Origin: Peribolospora baueri
Taxonomy: Eukaryota; Basidiomycota; Peribolosporomycetes; Peribolosporales; Peribolosporaceae
DNA length: 64,000 nucleotides
Direction: 5' to 3'
Assembly (NCBI GenBank): GCA_029717555.1
Contig: JAMDHS010000027.1
Coordinates: 124,001 to 188,000, forward strand
The notes beneath the pieces were generated by a model, which saw nothing but the letters and a program-made list of their open reading frames with translations, did no database searches and was not told the DNA's origin. This document shows positions 48,625-57,695 of the stretch, piece by piece; positions within the stretch are counted from its first letter, which is position 1, and each line of letters opens with the position of its first letter. The translations under genes were made by a program, and so were the position numbers.

Positions 48625-49887
48625 TCACTTCGCAACAGAAGCCTGCTTGGCTCCCGCGGCGGACGGAGCCTGACCGACGCCCTTGGCGATCACGGCCAAC
48701 ACGAATTTCCTATCCCGGGGGAAGACGCTCGGGTTTTGGCTCAGGGCCACGTCGGCGGTCTGCACGACTTCGTGGTCGTCCTGCCGTTCTCCGCGATGGT
48801 TGGCGGCCTGGTAGACGGAGTAGTCCCCTCCGCGCCGTTCCGCCAGGTCTTGCAGACGCTCTTCCGTCCCAGCGTCGGCGTGAAGGGGTGCGAGACGAGG
48901 GTGGGGCCACCAGCTGATCATGGAAGACGCCGAAGGCCAGGGCGTCGAGGTGGTGATGTCCGGCAGTTTCGACGCATCCACCGGCTCGGTTGGCTCGACC
49001 TTTCGGAGGCCTGGCAGCATGTCGTCCGAAGGAGCGTCGCGGAACCGACGCGGCTGGGACTGAGGCCGACCGCCCCTTCCGCCTCGCGGTCCGCCTGCGC
49101 TGGCGCCGCCGCGGCCGGGACCGTTTCGCTGTGCGCCGCGGCCGTAACCGTCTCGTCGAACAGGCGAGTTCGCACGGGCGCCACCACCACCGCGGGCGAA
49201 AGCACCTCGCGATCTTGGTCCGCCTCCGCCGATGATAGGGGTGTCCATCTGGATGAGATCGGCGTACGCCGTCTCGTCTCCTTCAGCCCCCGTCAAGCGA
49301 GAAGACAAGCGGCTCCGCCTGCCTTTAGGCTTTTGCCCCTTCGCGCCGTCCGTCGTCGTCGTCGTCTCCGCCGGATTTCGGTTGTCCCCTTCGATGGCGT
49401 CATCAAACTGGCCTCGCGCCAAAGCGGCCGAAAGGGAGCCCTCTTCCTTGGCCTTGTCCCGCCTCGGCGGCCTTCGGTGGCCATTGCGCACTCCCCCACG
49501 GCTGCGATTGTTGTAAGACGAAGAGTCGGGAGCGACGTTGCCGGATGCCGCCGCCCTGGCGTTGGCGTTGCCCACGTCGCCGAGGCGCCCTTGTCGTCGC
49601 AGTTCGGCCATATCGAGGCTTCGTCTAGTGAGCTCGACAATGTCGACGGTGGCCCCTCCGATCGTCAACGGGCCCTTACCGCGTCCGCGGCCTGCCCCTG
49701 CCCTTGCGGGCGGAGATGGCGAAGAGGGAGAGGCGGAAGAAGGCTCGGGCGCGGAGGCCGTGGACGAAGAGGCCGACGGGCCATCCGGAGGGGCGGCCGC
49801 GTTGGACAGCACCGGCGTGGCGCTGGAGAGCTGCCTGCGAAGGGTGTGCGGCCCCAGGCGGGCGTGTGCGACGGTCCTGCAGTACAT
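48625..49887 (-). CDS. RGG-box protein with mitochondrial presequence, family not recognised
   Basis: Single exon, 420 aa from the ATG at 49887. N-terminus MYCRTVAHARLGPHTLRRQL then SSATPVL is a strong presequence. Residues about 65-110 are Ser/Pro/Ala-rich, a helix LTRRSLDMAELRRQGRLGDV follows, and a central RGG-type RNA-binding region (RGAFARGGGGAR, GRGGASAGGPRGGRGG) lies near residues 240-300. The C-terminal third is less repetitive (WPSASSMISWWPHPRL, RLQDLAERRGGDYSVYQAAN, FPRDRKFVLAVIAKGV). The conserved-looking C-terminus could belong to a mitochondrial ribosomal or RNA-processing protein, but I cannot name a family. Convergent with the J-protein gene, 276 bp away. Confidence 0.65.
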   Translation of the reverse strand: MYCRTVAHARLGPHTLRRQLSSATPVLSNAAAPPDGPSASSSTASAPEPSSASPSSPSPPARAGAGRGRGKGPLTIGGATVDIVELTRRSLDMAELRRQGRLGDVGNANARAAASGNVAPDSSSYNNRSRGGVRNGHRRPPRRDKAKEEGSLSAALARGQFDDAIEGDNRNPAETTTTTDGAKGQKPKGRRSRLSSRLTGAEGDETAYADLIQMDTPIIGGGGPRSRGAFARGGGGARANSPVRRDGYGRGAQRNGPGRGGASAGGPRGGRGGRPQSQPRRFRDAPSDDMLPGLRKVEPTEPVDASKLPDITTSTPWPSASSMISWWPHPRLAPLHADAGTEERLQDLAERRGGDYSVYQAANHRGERQDDHEVVQTADVALSQNPSVFPRDRKFVLAVIAKGVGQAPSAAGAKQASVAK

Positions 49888-50923
49888 GGATGGGCGTGCG
49901 GTGGAGCGTCGACTTGACGGTGATGGAAGACGATGTGGACCGTCGAAGGAAGACGGACGGGCGGGTTCGGGCTGCGGCGACGGAAGGCCCGGAGTTAGGG
50001 TTACCGGCGCACGCACACGGAAAAGGAGGGATGAAGGAACGACGCGGGCGGGTCGCCGTGTCTGTCTTGCTTGCTTGTCTGTCGTCCGTGGGACGCTCCC
50101 TCTTTCAGCTTCAGCTTCAGCTCCAGCTCCAGCTTCTGCTTCTGCTTCAGCTTCTGCTCAGCTCGCCATCTCACGTCGGCAAAGCCTGCCAACGGCTCCA
50201 GCCAGCCCCAATCCAGCGAAGCGTAGCCTAGCGGCCTCGCCAGCGCCCGCAAACAAGCCCAGCGATACCGAGTCTCGTCGTCGATCTGGTCGTCGTCGTT
50301 ATCGTCGTTCACGCTCCGGTCGCACCCTTCCCTTCTCTCCCAGCCCAGCCCGCTGCGCTGGCTCCCCGTCGTCTTGTGATTCTCCAACATGCGCTGAGAC
50401 GGCCATTGGTGCACGGACATACACGGACGCAGTGCTGAGTGAGTGCGAAGCGAGCGAGCAACGGAGGGACGAAGCAGGACACGACGTAGTCACTAGCCCA
50501 GGTCGCGGAGTGGCTACCTCGTCACAGTCAAGTCGACTCCGTATGTCTCGCCCACCTTCCACCATTCCACCACGGCTTGGAGTGAAGGGGCGACGAGTGG
50601 AGTGGACGCGACAAAGGTCGCGCCTCGTCGTGTATCGTCGTGTCGTGCATCGCTCTCTCTGTCCGACGTGACTTAGACACGACGTGCTGATCACCTCGCC
50701 TTGCTTTCCGCAGCGACCGACGTTCTCTCCTTTATCGGCCCCGCCTTGCTTCTCCAGGTGAGCCCCTTCGCCGTCGTCGTCACCATCACCATCACCTTCA
50801 CCTTCCATCGCTGCTGTCCCGCGCCCTTTTACTTATTCAACCTTTTCCTACTTTCTCGCTCTCCCAAGAGTTACCCCCTTCCTCCCCGTTTGCCTCATTT
50901 GCCGCCTTTGCTCTGAACCCAAC
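49888..50923. other. Divergent intergenic region with probable 5'-UTR exon of the pseudo-helicase gene
   Basis: About 1 kb. A CAGCTT/CTGCTT repeat lies at 50105-50160. At 50714-50758 a segment bounded by CTTTCCGCAG and CTCCAG/GTGAGC looks like a noncoding leader exon, with a 5'-UTR intron running toward the ATG at 50924. No coding gene supported. Confidence 0.4.
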
Positions 50924-53900
50924 ATGAGCAGTCTCGCTCTCGGAAGCGGCGCCGACGAACCCGTCAACGTCTCCCACAATTCTCCCAGACTTCATGGCTC
51001 TCACCACAACTTTGGCACCATCGGCGACTCGCGCCGCTCCTCCGTCTCCCGCGACGCCGCCGCTTCACCCGTCCCGTCACCCTTCTCCAACCGCCTCCTC
51101 GACGGCCCACGCGTCTTCACCGACCTCATCGGCAATGACCAGCCGCGCCAGCAGCCCGGCATCTCCCAGCGCCCCGGCCTCAGCAGGGGCTCCTGCGTTC
51201 GAGCAAAGTCTCCCTTGCCGATGCATCAGATCGTCGCCAGCGAGGACTCGGCTGGCGCAGTAGATTTCCATCGCGCGAAAGAGGGGAGCGACGGCGAAGA
51301 CAAAGCCGACGCGCAGTCGCCCAATAAGGCCGCCTCTCCCTCCGCTCCTGGCCCTGGGCCCGGTGTCATTGGCAGCGGGCTCAGTGCTAACCAGGGCGCG
51401 TCGCCCGTCGCGACCGCTCCGCCGATCGCGAGCATGAGCGGCGGTGGCATGCCGCAGATGTCCGAGTTTGACAAGCAGGCCAGGCAGAGTCCCTTTGTCA
51501 ATGATCTTCTCGACAGACTGATTCGCGTCGAGTTGGGCATGAAGTGAGTCTTTTCTGTGACGGATGGACGTCTTCGTGCCCGATCCCATCACTGCCGACA
51601 GACTCGCTGACCCTGGACTCGCTCGCTTTTCTCCTACGCACCCCCATTCACACCACACAGGGACATGTCTCGGCAACTCTCTACCCTTAACCGCAACGTG
51701 TCCACTCTCCTCGACCGCATGCAGCCTGGCGCGGCAGGAAAGGAGGCGACTCTGTCCAAGGCCCCGGGAGGTCCAGCGCCGTCCACTTACGCGCCCACGC
51801 TGTCCGGTTTCTCTGCCACCGGAGGAAGTGCGGCGCCCGCCGGTATGAATGCGCTGTCCGCCAACCTTGCCAATATGGGTCTGTCGTCCGTCCCCGGTGC
51901 CGCCCAGCCAAGCAGTATGACTTCATCGCAGCCTCCGCAGGCTGAGGGCGATTTCCGCTCCCTCTCTCAGCAGCTCTCGAGTCTCAGCAGCAGTGTGGCT
52001 CAGCTCCTCAGTATGCAAACCGGCACCCAAGCCGCATCGTCCGCCGTGCAGCCTGGCGGTCAGTTCGGTCTCGGTCTCGCCGGCTCGCTGGCTGGTCCCA
52101 ACCTCGTGCACCCTAACGACGCGTCCAGTCCTCTCCTCGGCGGCCTCAGTGCCTTTACCGCCGGCGGTCAGTCTCACCTGCTCAGTCCGAACCCGGAAAG
52201 GATGAGCAGTCCGCGCCCCGGTGCTGGCCCTATGCGCCCTTCCTGGAGCAACACTTCGCACGACAGCGGTCACGGAGGCTCTAGGGACCGGCGGTACAGC
52301 ACCTTGCCGCCTCAGGGTCGAAGGGAGAGCATGCCGGTTAGTGCCACCCCTTCTTCTACGCATTCGTTCGTCCCCTCGTTCGCGGCTCGAGCGCACATCT
52401 GCAGTGACCATCGTGTCTGACGCGCTTGCCTTTAAACAGAACACCGACGATAGTCGCTCGTACAGCATGGATTCGACGCCTACGGCGACCAAGTGGGAAC
52501 AGCTTAGTCTGCCTAACGACCTCCTTCGCGCTATCCAAAAGTATGGCTTGGGTCCGCCGAACAAGATTCAGCAGCGCGCCTTGCCTTTCCTCCTTCGAGG
52601 TGCCGACATCATTGCCCAGGCGCCGCCGACGCAAGAGAGGATCGCAGCGTACGTCATTCCGGCTCTGAACACGGTCCTGACGACGCTGCGCGACCCGGCA
52701 CACATGTCATCCGATCGCCCTCTCGGGCGCGGTCCGCTGGTCTTAGTCATTTGCACCACCGTTGATCAAGCGACGCAGGCTCAGCGTATGGCTCTCGGTC
52801 TCGGAGCCAACCTCGGCGTACGTGTCGGCACTGTCGCCGCCGTCGGCGTGGACGCGGCCACCGAAGCTCAGAACGTTCTCCAGATGGCTCCCCACATACT
52901 CGTGGGAACGCCGCAAAAGATGCATGACCTGTTCACATACGTCACTCCGCGCGGCGGCGTGCCCACCAACGACATCCGGCTCGTCATCCTCGACGAAGTC
53001 GACCAACTCATCGCTCGCAACATGTCCGACTTTGTTTCCAGCCTCCTCCGCCTGCTCCCCATCCCCCGAGCGGTCCCGCGCACTTCTTCTGCCGCCGGAA
53101 CGGCCACCCCTCCCGTTTTGAGCCCCGGAATTCCTTCATCCAGCGCATTCGCACCGTTCGATCCCAACGCCGTGTCTGGGTATCCCAACTCTGGAGGTCG
53201 TGGCCCCCAGGCGGTGCTCGAGTCGGATCGTCAGACGGCCATCTTCTCTAACACGGTCCCGCAGGACGTCTTGAACTTCGCGTCGAGCATCAACCTCCGC
53301 GAGCCTGTTCGCGTGCTTGTTCGCCGTGAAGGCGCCAACAGGGGTCTCGATAGCGCGTCTGAGCGGCCCATGTCCGGCAGCAGCACCAGTTCGAGCATCT
53401 TCGGCGGTGGAGGTGGAGCGACCACCGCTGACGCCCTCCTGCGCGGATTGAGGCACTACTATCTCTACGTAGCCGTCGGCAGCGCGGCAGCGGGCATGAC
53501 CTCGCCTGGCATGGGCGCCGCCTGGGGCCGGATGGGGATGGACAGCAGCATCATGCACGCCAAAGAGATGAAGCTCGACGTCATCACTGACCTCCTCGAG
53601 GATATTGAGTTCGGTCAAGCCGTCATCTACACTGCCAACGCGCAGACGCTTGAGGCGGTCACGTACAAGCTAGCAAGCAAGAACATGGAGGCGCTGGCGC
53701 TGGTGAGTGCTCCACCAGAAGTCGTAACGCGGACTTCTCCCCCCTTCCCCTCTTTGAACGCATCCATGAATGCTGATCGTCGCCGTCGTTTGCATCTTCC
53801 TTCGCCTTGTCCAGCATCAAGACCTACCGCTGACGACGCGCCAGACGGTCCTTTCCAAGTTCCGTGCGCCGGGCAGCAGCCTCATGCTCGGCGGCGGCAT

Positions 53901-54291
53901 GAGCCGTCCGGCGAAGAAGGCTTTGGTGGTGTGTGACCTCTTGGTCAAGCCTTCGGACGTGCATCAGGTTCCCTTGGTCGTTATGTACGACATGCCCCGC
54001 ACGGTGGAGGAGTACGTGCAAAAAGTCGCCTGCGCCGCTTCCACCGGCCTCGCTCGTCCTGGCGTGTGCATCAACGTCGTTACCGCTTCCGGCGGCAACG
54101 GTGGCGATGTGGACATGCTCAGGACCATCGAGAGTCACACCCGTATCAAAATGAGTGAGTATAGATCGTCGTCGTCGTCGTCGAAGTCGGACGGGTGTCT
54201 GGTCGTCCAAGCGACGTGCTGACAGACGTTGAGGGCCTCCGTCGTTTTGCCAGCCGAACTTCCCATGGACGCCAAGGCCCTCGTCGCTTGA
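50924..54291 (+). CDS. Pseudo-DEAD-box protein: eIF4A-like fold with degenerate helicase motifs and long disordered N-terminus
   Basis: Five exons join(50924..51543,51661..52336,52440..53702,53815..54154,54254..54291), 978 aa, phases consistent. Residues 433-978 follow eIF4A in order: Q-motif-like LRAIQKYGLGPPNKIQQRA, motif I AQAPPTQER (491-499; AxxGxGKT expected), Ib VGTPQK, motif II DEVD (617-620), motif III IFSNTVPQDVL (FSATxP expected), IVf LEDIEFGQAVIYTANAQ, V LVVCDLLVKPSDVHQVPLVV (TDxxARGID expected), VI YVQKVACAASTGLARPG (HRIGRxGRxGRxG expected) and the end TELPMDAKALVA. The P-loop Lys, SAT and motif VI arginines are gone, so ATP hydrolysis and unwinding are unlikely. The 430-residue N-terminus is Ser/Pro/Gln-rich, with two related helical segments (LSTLNRNVSTLLDRM; LSQQLSSLSSSVAQLLSMQ). 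The frame is clean, so this is a working gene, not a pseudogene. A translation or mRNP scaffold is inference. Confidence 0.85.
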
Positions 54292-55242
54292 GAACGATGG
54301 GTTTCGGCGCCCGCTGCCACTTCGCTCGTGGAGAATTTCCCCCATTTGTCTAACGATATTTGCACGGAGGCTTGAGGTTGCTCCCATCTCGATCCCCGTT
54401 TCCGTCTTCGCATTCGTCGACCGCCCGCCCTTCGTCATCATTCCGCCTTTGCCTACCTTGACTTCGTCTCCATGATCGTCCGTCGTCGTCAACAACAACA
54501 ACAACAACAACATCCTCTTCCCCTCACTCGCCGGACCCCTCGCAAAGACTCCCGTGTTTACTCGGCCCCTTTTCCCGGAACGCGCACAAGCTATTCTTCT
54601 CCTTCTCACATCCGTCCTCCATGCTCTCTCAGCAACGTCCCCGTTCTATTATACCCTCGGGTAACCTCCCGGTTGTGTTTCTAGTCGCCGTTTCCCTTCC
54701 CTCCTCCGCCTTGTCGTCGTCGTTCCGCCGTCGTGTGCGACTGCGTCATGTCCTCCAGAGTTCCCCTCTTTCCTCCTATTTTCTGCCATCGTGTCCCTGT
54801 GCAGCAGCCGGAAATTCCTACTTCTTGGCAGCAGAATCTCTCGTTTGCTCTCTCGTGAGTGAGTGAGTTCGTCGTTCGTCGTCCGTCGCCCGTCCCCTCC
54901 GCTCTCGTCTACGCTCTGCCTCGCCAGCGAGGCGATCGATCGATCTTTGGACTCCTCCCCCCCTATGTTCACTGTATGTAGCTATGCTCGTCCCGAAGGT
55001 CTCGGCAGCATGCTGTGGTCGTACCTTTGGCCTTTCCTCCTGGAATGTTAAGAAGCTCGAGTTCCCCCCTTCAGCCCCTGCCATCCGAGGCTCGACTCGG
55101 CGCGGGTGGTTAGGCCGGACGGTCGGAACGAAGGTGTGCTGCGGCATTCCCTGGTACGCACGGGCCCCTGTCACAGGTGAGCGCCGCGTCGCTTTCTCTC
55201 TCGTCTTCCCTCTCTCTTGCTTCTCAAGAGAAAGCGACGAGA
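54292..55242. other. Intergenic region between two + genes
   Basis: About 950 bp. CAA repeats at about 54492-54512 and GATC copies near 54933-54946. AG/GTGAGC at about 55177 followed by CTTCTCAAG just before the next ATG may be a 5'-UTR intron. No other gene seen. Confidence 0.4.
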
Positions 55243-57695
55243 ATGTGGTCCGACGAGCCCTCGTACCTCTCCGCCGCCGCCCTGGACGCGCTTGGCCGTC
55301 AGGACCCGCTCAAGTTTGTCGACACCTACGTTCGCCTGCAGGCTGTCCTCGCATCTCGCCGGTGCGCTTCACCCCCGTTCGCGGATCTGCCTCCATTCGA
55401 GGGCCTCTCCTCCGCGCCCGCCTCACCACGGCGATGGAGGGATGGGGATAGCGGCCGCGGCCGGGGAGGTAGGCGGGACCGTGGAGGTGGAGAGGGAGGC
55501 TCGTCTAGCCGCGACGGATCGGGCGATTCGAGCGTTCGTCGACGGAGGTGCACCGATGACCACGATCACGATCCTCCCGACAGCGGACGGGATGGAGAAG
55601 TCGCCGACGTCGACGCCGACGCCGGACGGATGGAGCGGGGGGAGAAGAGCATCGGACCGACGTCGAGGCGGCGGCCATCTCGTGCGAAGAAGACGTCACG
55701 CCAGGAGCGGGAGCGGGAGCGAAAGGGGAAGCGAAAGAAAGGAGAGGGAGGAGGGCATGAAAAAGAAGCGGGGGCTGGCGACGTCGTCGATAGACGCCAA
55801 GGTGGGTGCCGTGTGATCGCATCTCCTTCCGCCCCTTGAAATGGCCAAGGTGTTCTCGCGGACCGATCGGCTATAACCATCGCTTTCTCCCTTCCCTTAC
55901 TCCACTTCTCGCAACGCAGTGCTCGAAAGACGCAGAGACGCGCGTCGCGCCAAAGCCTTCATCGTCCAGGATCGCTCCAAGTCCGCCATCGCCCGGGCCC
56001 GTCACATGTCCGAGGGACGCGCCGCTGCGTCGAAATGTAGGCCGCGTGAAGGGGAGGGCTCGGACGGCGATGGCGGCTCGACAGCGTCCGAAGACGAGAG
56101 AAAGCGAAATCGATCCGACGGCGACAACAGGCACGCCAAAGCTCTTTCACGGGCTCAGAATCGCAACGAAGGTCTCTTGAGGCTCGCGCGGGAAGTCGAG
56201 AGGAGCAAGAATGTCGGCAAAACCTCAAGACTCACGGTGAGTGGCGGTCCGCTGGCTGTATGCGCGTGCCAAGGACGCCGAAGGTCGCTCATGGCCACGC
56301 CGTTCTCCCTCTGATGACTCGTCCGTCCTCCCCATACCCATGTGCCATGTACAACCTGGCCTCTAGCTCAAGGAACCTCGACTCGGCGTCTTCAACAAAG
56401 GCGTGGCGTCCAAATCTGTCAAGACGTTTGATTTCAGAGGCAGGAGACATGGTGGCGTATCCGACCTCGTCTTTAACGAGCTGACCTTCCTCAAACCGAG
56501 AGCGAGGCACCATGGTTCTTGGGCACGAGACGAGAGCTTGGGGAGCAAAGGAGGACCTTCAAAGAGCCGGGGAAAGGAGAAAGCGAAGGAAAAGGACCCT
56601 GCTTCGCTTCATCGCGCCGAAGGCAGAGAGCAGAAGCGCAAGAGGGGCGCGAATGAGGGCGAGGCTGGGGCGACCAGCAGGTTTTTCGACCGCCAGCCTC
56701 GAACCGTCCTGTCCTTGGCCAGTTCCGACGACGAGAACCCGCCGACGGAGGACGATCGTCCCGGCTCGTCTTCTTCTAAGTGTCCGGAGATTTCGGTCGA
56801 CGACGATAGCGACGGATTGACGGAGCCTCTAGAGCGCTGCCGGTTACTCAAAGAGAAGCGGACCCGGCATGCGGACGGAGCGCTTCATCCCAGAGATGTC
56901 AATTTGGCTTCGAACTCTCCTGGTCATCGTCTTATCGGTCACCATCTCACGGACACACGCTCTCGACACTTTGACAACGAACCTCGAGCTAAACGGCGCA
57001 GGACCTACCCTAACGCCTCGAGGTCTTCTAACTCGCGTACCGACGCAGCGGCACGGCGTTCGATCAGCCCTACGGAGCGTCTTATCAAGGCCTGCGAGCG
57101 CGGCGCTTTCTCCGAGGAAGACGTCGAGGCGGACACGCTTGGTAATTTAAAAGCACGCTTTGCGATCACGGAAGAGCGGCGGTCGTCCCCAGTCAGGTCC
57201 CCATACGGCGTTTCGCACTTTCTCGCCAGCCCAGGACCTCCACCGGAACGCATTGACTCGTTCACAAAGGCTATTTTAGGGCTCGCAGATTCTCAAGATG
57301 GAGAGGGTGGAGAGAGGCTCGACGGCGCTGAGCAGGAGCTGCCTGAAGATTGTCGGGATGCACACCCCGATCCTGCGTGCGAAGTACCCGTCTCGGCGGA
57401 GAATCGTCAAGACGAAGGCAACATGTTCGTGGACGGCGAGTACCCAGGCGGGCAGTTTTACGTCCCGACGTTTGCGCAGACCGGCGGCGTTCCAATTTCC
57501 CAGGGAGCATATTTTCATGCTCCGCCGCTTCGGGACGATGCGCCTCAGCCAGAAAATCGCCTTTTGGACAATGAAAGCGCGCTCGCGCGCTATTCTCCAA
57601 CGCTAGCGCAGTTGGAGGGCGGGACTCGAACGTTTGAGGGTCCGCGGCTGGAGAGCGAGGAATTGAGAGGTTTCTGGCGGCCTTTCAGGCCGTAA
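55243..57695 (+). CDS. Orphan basic, probably nuclear protein
   Basis: Three exons join(55243..55801,55920..56236,56367..57695), 734 aa. No known domain. A compact N-terminus (MWSDEPSYLSAAALDALGRQ, DPLKFVDTYVRLQAVLASRR, residues 1-44) looks ordered and helical. It is followed by Arg/Gly/Asp/Ser low complexity and a Lys/Arg-rich segment (ERERERKGKRKKGEGG). Exon 2 starts VLERRRDARRAKAFIVQDRS. Exon 3 has KEPRLGVFNKGVASKSVKTF and SDLVFNELTFLKP, then NLS-like PRAKRRRTYP, SPTERLIKACERGAFSEEDV, SPYGVSHFLASPGP and a C-terminus FEGPRLESEELRGFWRPFR. The short conserved-looking blocks spaced by disorder resemble a chromatin or DNA-repair scaffold, but this is a guess. Junctions are in phase with good splice sites. 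Confidence 0.7.

Follow-up and report, generated by a model that had tools for sequence, protein, structure and literature searches.

A probable eIF4A-class pseudohelicase retained in basidiomycete fungi with its catalytic motifs replaced

Why should a fungus keep a DEAD-box helicase scaffold whose catalytic residues have been replaced? The question is raised by a gene at 50924-54291 of a 64,000-nucleotide stretch of the Peribolospora baueri genome (assembly GCA_029717555.1, contig JAMDHS010000027.1, positions 124,001 to 188,000; the whole of this stretch is referred to below as the window, and the gene and its parts all lie on its + strand). Its five exons specify 978 codons and a stop in an open frame, and the protein is laid out as a leader with two coiled-coil helices, followed by an eIF4A-type RecA1-RecA2 core. 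The P-loop and the motif Ia Arg are replaced, and the HRxGR of motif VI is absent, in this protein's 302 listed relatives, with the RecA1 replacements fixed. The explanation that we favor, with a probability of roughly 0.6, is that the gene encodes a catalytically dead paralogue of the eIF4A/eIF4AIII class, vertically inherited since early basidiomycete evolution and probably serving as an ATP-independent oligomeric scaffold in messenger ribonucleoprotein (mRNP) or translation-initiation work.

The relatives come from three protein searches (E<=0.001; 347, 356 and 373 matches), the best 120 matches of each amounting to 302 distinct proteins; together with the window protein they make up the 303-sequence alignment to which the counts below refer. 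The borders of the DEAD-box motifs are those of the literature, placed through the alignment to eIF4A-I. The former Walker A motif (motif I) reads AQAPPTQERI (residues 491-500, 52614..52643). AP..QER is present in 302/302 relatives, the family form being AP[PAS][TI]QER-I and the exact string APPTQER occurring in 268; A493, P494, Q497, E498, R499 and I500 are identical in all 303 sequences, and the positions of the Lys, the Thr and the second Gly of the active helicase's AxxGxGKT are occupied by R, I and E in every one. Motif Ia, PTRELA in eIF4A, has become TTVDQA (residues 538-543, 52755..52772), with T539, V540, D541 and Q542 invariant and Val in place of the motif Ia Arg in 303/303. Motif II (DEVD, residues 617-620, 52992..53003) retains DExD: D617, E618 and D620 are universal, and the third letter is V (267), C (30), T (4) or A (2). 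Motif III is no longer SAT: in the window it is the SNT (residues 702-704, 53247..53255) of an FSNT that starts at residue 701, and in the family SNT (269/303) or SCT (34/303), with S702 and T704 never varying. The Q-motif glutamine is found in 298 of the 300 sequences that align there. The original prediction, made from the letters of the window, was of an eIF4A scaffold stripped of most of its helicase motifs with DEVD left over; the alteration of motifs I, Ia, III and VI bears this out, and what requires correction is the inventory of survivors, to which the Q motif and the S and T of motif III must be added.

In RecA2, the former motifs V (residues 892-901, 53929..53958; CDLLVKPSD starts at residue 893) and VI (residues 921-928, 54016..54039; VQKVACAASTGLARPG starts at residue 921) vary within the family. 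At the first Arg position of HRxGR there is R (180) or K (47) in 231 aligned sequences, and at the second, R in just 1 of 229. An eIF4A-like LPMD follows at residue 969. Pattern searches of the 302 relatives found no P-loop in motif I, the three GK[ST] strings being hundreds of residues away, and not a single [LF].SAT[MLF]P or HR[IV]GR. (A looser SAT pattern, which matched 16 of 238 proteins, was rejected as motif III; these strings must lie elsewhere, because the aligned motif III is SNT or SCT in 303/303.) The replaced residues are required for ATP hydrolysis and unwinding by eIF4A.

Read in isolation, the window might be thought to hold a gene copy in decay or a misassembled stretch, since its motifs then appear simply broken. 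That possibility is now practically nil. The gene is not an isolated case of decay, because AP..QER is found in all of the listed relatives and HR[IV]GR in none; the same replacements recur throughout, the frame is open, homologues are continuous across three of the four splice joins, and the gene is single-copy. Orthologues with intact GKT, SAT and HRIGR at these positions, which would have pointed to misassembly or lone decay, were sought among the same relatives and none was found. Decay, misassembly and lineage-specific loss are thus ruled out by the comparative data, and the proposal of a pseudo-helicase under coding constraint is upheld by replacements that are shared by all of the relatives and fixed in RecA1.

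Where is this constraint concentrated? In RecA1, mean weighted conservation is 0.89 over the motif columns (Q, I, Ia, Ib, II and III) and 0.65 elsewhere in the domain; when the mask of motif positions is slid along RecA1, a contrast this large appears only at the true placement, 1 of 225. In RecA2 the order is reversed, with 0.52 for the motifs and 0.62 outside them, and 149 of 163 placements do equally well. Positions conserved to at least 0.95 number 59 of 225 in RecA1 and 12 of 163 in RecA2. Residues retained from eIF4A, in the Q motif, DExD and the S/T pair of motif III, account for some of the RecA1 signal, but the replaced E498, R499, I500 and V540 are just as fixed. The RecA1 surface that once served ATP and RNA is thus the most constrained part of that domain, even with several of its catalytic residues altered, while its RecA2 counterpart has been released. 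Sequence comparison of this kind suggests a protein that appears to be retained for a different job.

The relatives also give a glimpse of the order of events. Many of the Pucciniomycotina proteins (P0178 and P0239-P0270) keep HRI, followed by AC or SC, in motif VI, and their motif II is mostly DECD; P0269 and P0270, with DETD and DEAD, appear to be the most divergent of them. Agaricomycetes often keep HRV. Many of the Pucciniomycotina proteins retain more of motif VI than the window protein does. These patterns suggest that RecA2 changed later, lineage by lineage; the motif state of the Pucciniomycotina may be a less degraded one, and a record of the order of loss.

From what did the family descend, and how widely is it spread? 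Pfam DEAD (residues 473-657, 2.3e-16) and Helicase_C (residues 810-924, 1.3e-8) are both matched beyond the cut-off, and the closest solved structures are eIF4A-I chains (1.3e-33 in the PDB ranking). The 22.1-Mb P. baueri genome holds a single copy: the next matches to an exon 3 query are ordinary helicases at E 1.9e-14 or weaker. It also holds, elsewhere, an intact eIF4A (locus L002, E 3.9e-133 to eIF4A-I) and an intact eIF4AIII/FAL1 (locus L004, E 1.2e-150 to eIF4A-III), both with intact P-loop, DEAD and SAT motifs, and the window gene is therefore an extra member of the class. With eIF4A (TIF1/TIF2, DDX2) the window protein shares two RecA domains, the Q motif, DExD, the linker (REPVRVLVRR) and the C-terminus; it differs in its altered Walker A, Ia, III, V and VI motifs, its long insertions and its coiled-coil leader, and is 28% identical to its own genome's eIF4A over the aligned part of RecA1. 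The genome's eIF4AIII/FAL1 (DDX48) is marginally nearer, at 31% identity over RecA1, but is set apart by its catalytic motifs, which the window protein has lost.

In a RecA1 tree of 23 representatives (chosen from the 303 at <70% identity) and seven P. baueri helicases, the family is split from the helicases by a very long stem with an ultrafast bootstrap support of 100. FAL1 is closest to the family by mean identity (0.30), followed by eIF4A (0.29) and DHH1 (0.27), with the other four helicases lower; in a single-protein search FAL1 and DHH1 score above eIF4A. By the PDB ranking and by identity among these seven helicases, the eIF4A/eIF4AIII class is nearest. The exact parent among eIF4A, FAL1 and DHH1 is uncertain because the stem is long, the outgroups are few and DHH1 can outscore eIF4A. 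Groups within the tree match the three subphyla as far as names allow, and the window protein adjoins the smut-fungus group. The named relatives, P0019 apart, belong to the Ustilaginomycotina, the Agaricomycotina (including Calocera) and the Pucciniomycotina (Sporobolomyces, Rhodotorula, Microbotryum and others); many entries are nameless, and no Tremellomycete stands among the named ones of the matches listed. The simplest history that these comparisons allow would be a single origin before the subphyla separated, followed by vertical descent.

Annotations, where given, are mostly hypothetical protein, P-loop nucleoside triphosphatase, RNA helicase or translation initiation factor. A few entries are odd: P0019, counted in all totals, is filed under the fern Adiantum nelumboides and is probably fungal contamination; P0118, from Pleurotus djamor, has a cytochrome P450 domain in its annotation, probably through a gene-merge error. 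Five annotated Agaricomycete relatives (P0042, P0043, P0083, P0103 and P0289) carry an RNA recognition motif (RRM) N-terminal to the helicase core. The two Tulasnella RRM pieces are alike, as are the other three; between these sets some 50-170 residues align at 26-37% identity, and compared with the window they give no convincing match (best E 0.22). The RRM was rejected as a part of the family: neighboring genes have probably been merged in annotation, a real fusion being the alternative.

In the leader, coiled coil 1 (residues 188-226, 51485..51718, split by intron 1 at 51544-51660) has conserved a/d heptads, in a region covered in 120 of 121 sequences, and 8 of 5000 permutations are equally good; coiled coil 2 (residues 303-328, 51947..52024) has heptads in a region covered in 119 of 121, with 11 of 5000 permutations as good. 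Both are helices in a predicted structure, a single model of the homologue P0056, which stands in for the window protein. The two helical leader segments seen in the original prediction are, then, both conserved coiled coils.

The gene model itself is supported by homologues at three of its four joins. Exon 1 (50924..51543) carries the start codon, the leader and the first half of coiled coil 1; exon 2 (51661..52336) the remainder of that coiled coil, coiled coil 2 and the leader up to residue 432; exon 3 (52440..53702) residues 433-853, that is, RecA1 and the start of RecA2, on the evidence of the Pfam and PDB matches; exon 4 (53815..54154) RecA2 with the altered motifs V and VI; exon 5 (54254..54291) the eIF4A-like C-terminus (TELPMDAKALVA) and the stop. 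All introns have GT-AG borders. Joins 1, 3 and 4 are crossed without an indel in 116, 118 and 99 of 120 homologues; join 2, which falls in disordered sequence, is crossed so in only 7 of 120 and is unsupported by this measure. The five exons and the open frame are as first described; the introns fall in phases 2, 0, 0 and 1, which preserves the frame although they are not all of phase 0. The long open frames on either side, 48628-50157 (- strand), 55153-55836 (+) and 56367-57692 (+), have no Pfam match at E<=0.01.

Could the protein nonetheless be a working helicase? A 2025 survey of Ustilago maydis (PMC12511879) treats UMAG_05873 and UMAG_00835 as uncharacterized DEAD-box helicases specific to basidiomycetes, with several canonical motifs in the core (data not shown there) and, in its tree, no close orthologue beyond the Basidiomycota; UMAG_05873 is tabulated there after eIF4A, FAL1, DHH1, DBP5 and SUB2, and STRING predicts a link to translation. 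Judged by this description, UMAG_05873 is probably a member of the family that we describe. An active, lineage-specific RNA helicase, of the kind that the survey assumes, would also account for the Pfam DEAD and Helicase_C matches. Walker A and HRxGR, however, are absent from every listed relative; we consider activity highly improbable. The literature search turned up no other paper naming UMAG_05873 (the accessible part of PMC11941951 mentions UMAG_00835 only) and, among the matches listed, no account of a fungal pseudo-eIF4A as a pseudohelicase. Absence from the Ascomycota rests on PMC12511879 (S. cerevisiae, S. pombe and N. crassa), and holds only if UMAG_05873 is a family member; no search was aimed at the Ascomycota.

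Loss of hydrolysis need not mean loss of ligand. The retained Q motif, together with the DExD and the motif III S and T that are universal in the family, might still hold an adenine nucleotide, a metal or RNA, making the protein a nucleotide sensor or a passive RNA clamp, and the strong selection on the RecA1 face would fit. Yet the P-loop Lys, Thr and second Gly and the motif Ia Arg are replaced without exception, and the nucleotide and RNA motifs of RecA2 are not specially conserved, which leaves a binder of this kind quite improbable. A somewhat better case, though still an unlikely one, can be made for a role as decoy or regulator: with the acidic patch of RecA2, the protein would take up eIF4G, CWC22 or another MIF4G protein in competition with eIF4A or eIF4AIII. 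The relatives have an acidic residue at the position of eIF4A1 D265 in 302/302, of E268 in 291/302 and of T298 in 302/302, and Arg at that of R45 in 216 of 260 aligned; MIF4G matches, which are candidate partners, occur at three places in the genome (G000:C116:90902-91672, C44:47215-47634 and C88:113337-113594). The eIF4A mutant D265R/E268K/D296A/T298K shows impaired binding to eIF4G (PMC7470955), and CWC22 is not bound by eIF4A3 D270K/D273K (PMC4482076). (Numbering was counted from the eIF4A-I alignment, and its letters agree with PMC7470955; D296 and T298 correspond to window residues 847 and 849.) However, charge is kept in at least 95% of relatives at 31 of the 65 charged positions of eIF4A, so that retention of two acidic contacts is unremarkable; the D296 equivalent is Gly in 274/302 (Asn in the window protein and in the genome's FAL1); and it is the RecA1 face, not the RecA2 patch, that is most conserved. 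The eIF4G partnership first suggested for this protein is accordingly not established.

An ATP-independent scaffold nevertheless remains the reading that we prefer, and several points weigh against it. Retention of Q, DExD and SxT makes some nucleotide or metal binding possible. The counts cover the best 120 of 347, 356 and 373 matches, and lower-ranked relatives might have intact motifs. The P0056 model is of modest confidence (mean predicted local distance difference test score, pLDDT, 64.1; predicted template modeling score, pTM, 0.48), and fold comparison ends in ties, with Dbp10, UAP56, DDX6 and many other DEAD-box proteins within 1 Z unit of eIF4A.

If the scaffold reading is right, how might the protein work? 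R499, at the position of the Walker A Lys and beside the retained DExD and SxT, would close the nucleotide pocket; the former ATP/RNA face of RecA1 would be a fixed structural lock or a binding surface; and through its two leader coiled coils the protein would form oligomers or be anchored to a partner, bringing several dead eIF4A-like cores together, perhaps in an mRNP or during translation initiation. A more specific version can be put forward tentatively, with the odds somewhat against it: that the RecA1 face of an ancestral eIF4A-class protein was rebuilt once, early in the Basidiomycota, into an invariant pocket (QER, TVDQ, DExDQ, SxTVPQD) for a specific conserved partner or ligand, and that the protein, multimerized by its coiled-coil leader, regulates translation initiation or mRNP assembly throughout the phylum, as a regulator absent from other fungi.

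Dead enzymes such as pseudokinases are known regulators. By its homologous predicted fold, its lost catalytic residues and its conservation in that state, the window protein would count as a pseudohelicase. The closest parallel is Utp25/Def, which is pan-eukaryotic and nucleolar, whereas the family described here has been found in basidiomycetes and carries coiled coils. The window protein's Pfam matches at E<=1 are DEAD, Helicase_C and a weak LPP coiled-coil, not Utp25. What the two have in common is an eIF4A fold whose helicase motifs are lost: PMC9539457 describes Utp25, of the small-subunit (SSU) processome, in these terms, and calls it only the second proposed pseudohelicase. With the dead catalytic face the best-conserved part of RecA1 across three basidiomycete subphyla, the family is a good place to ask how a helicase scaffold is used without ATP, and it calls into question the database names in use for its members, RNA helicase and translation initiation factor. 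If the explanation offered here is true, a basidiomycete-only component close to eIF4A or the exon junction complex would mark a real difference from the yeast models.
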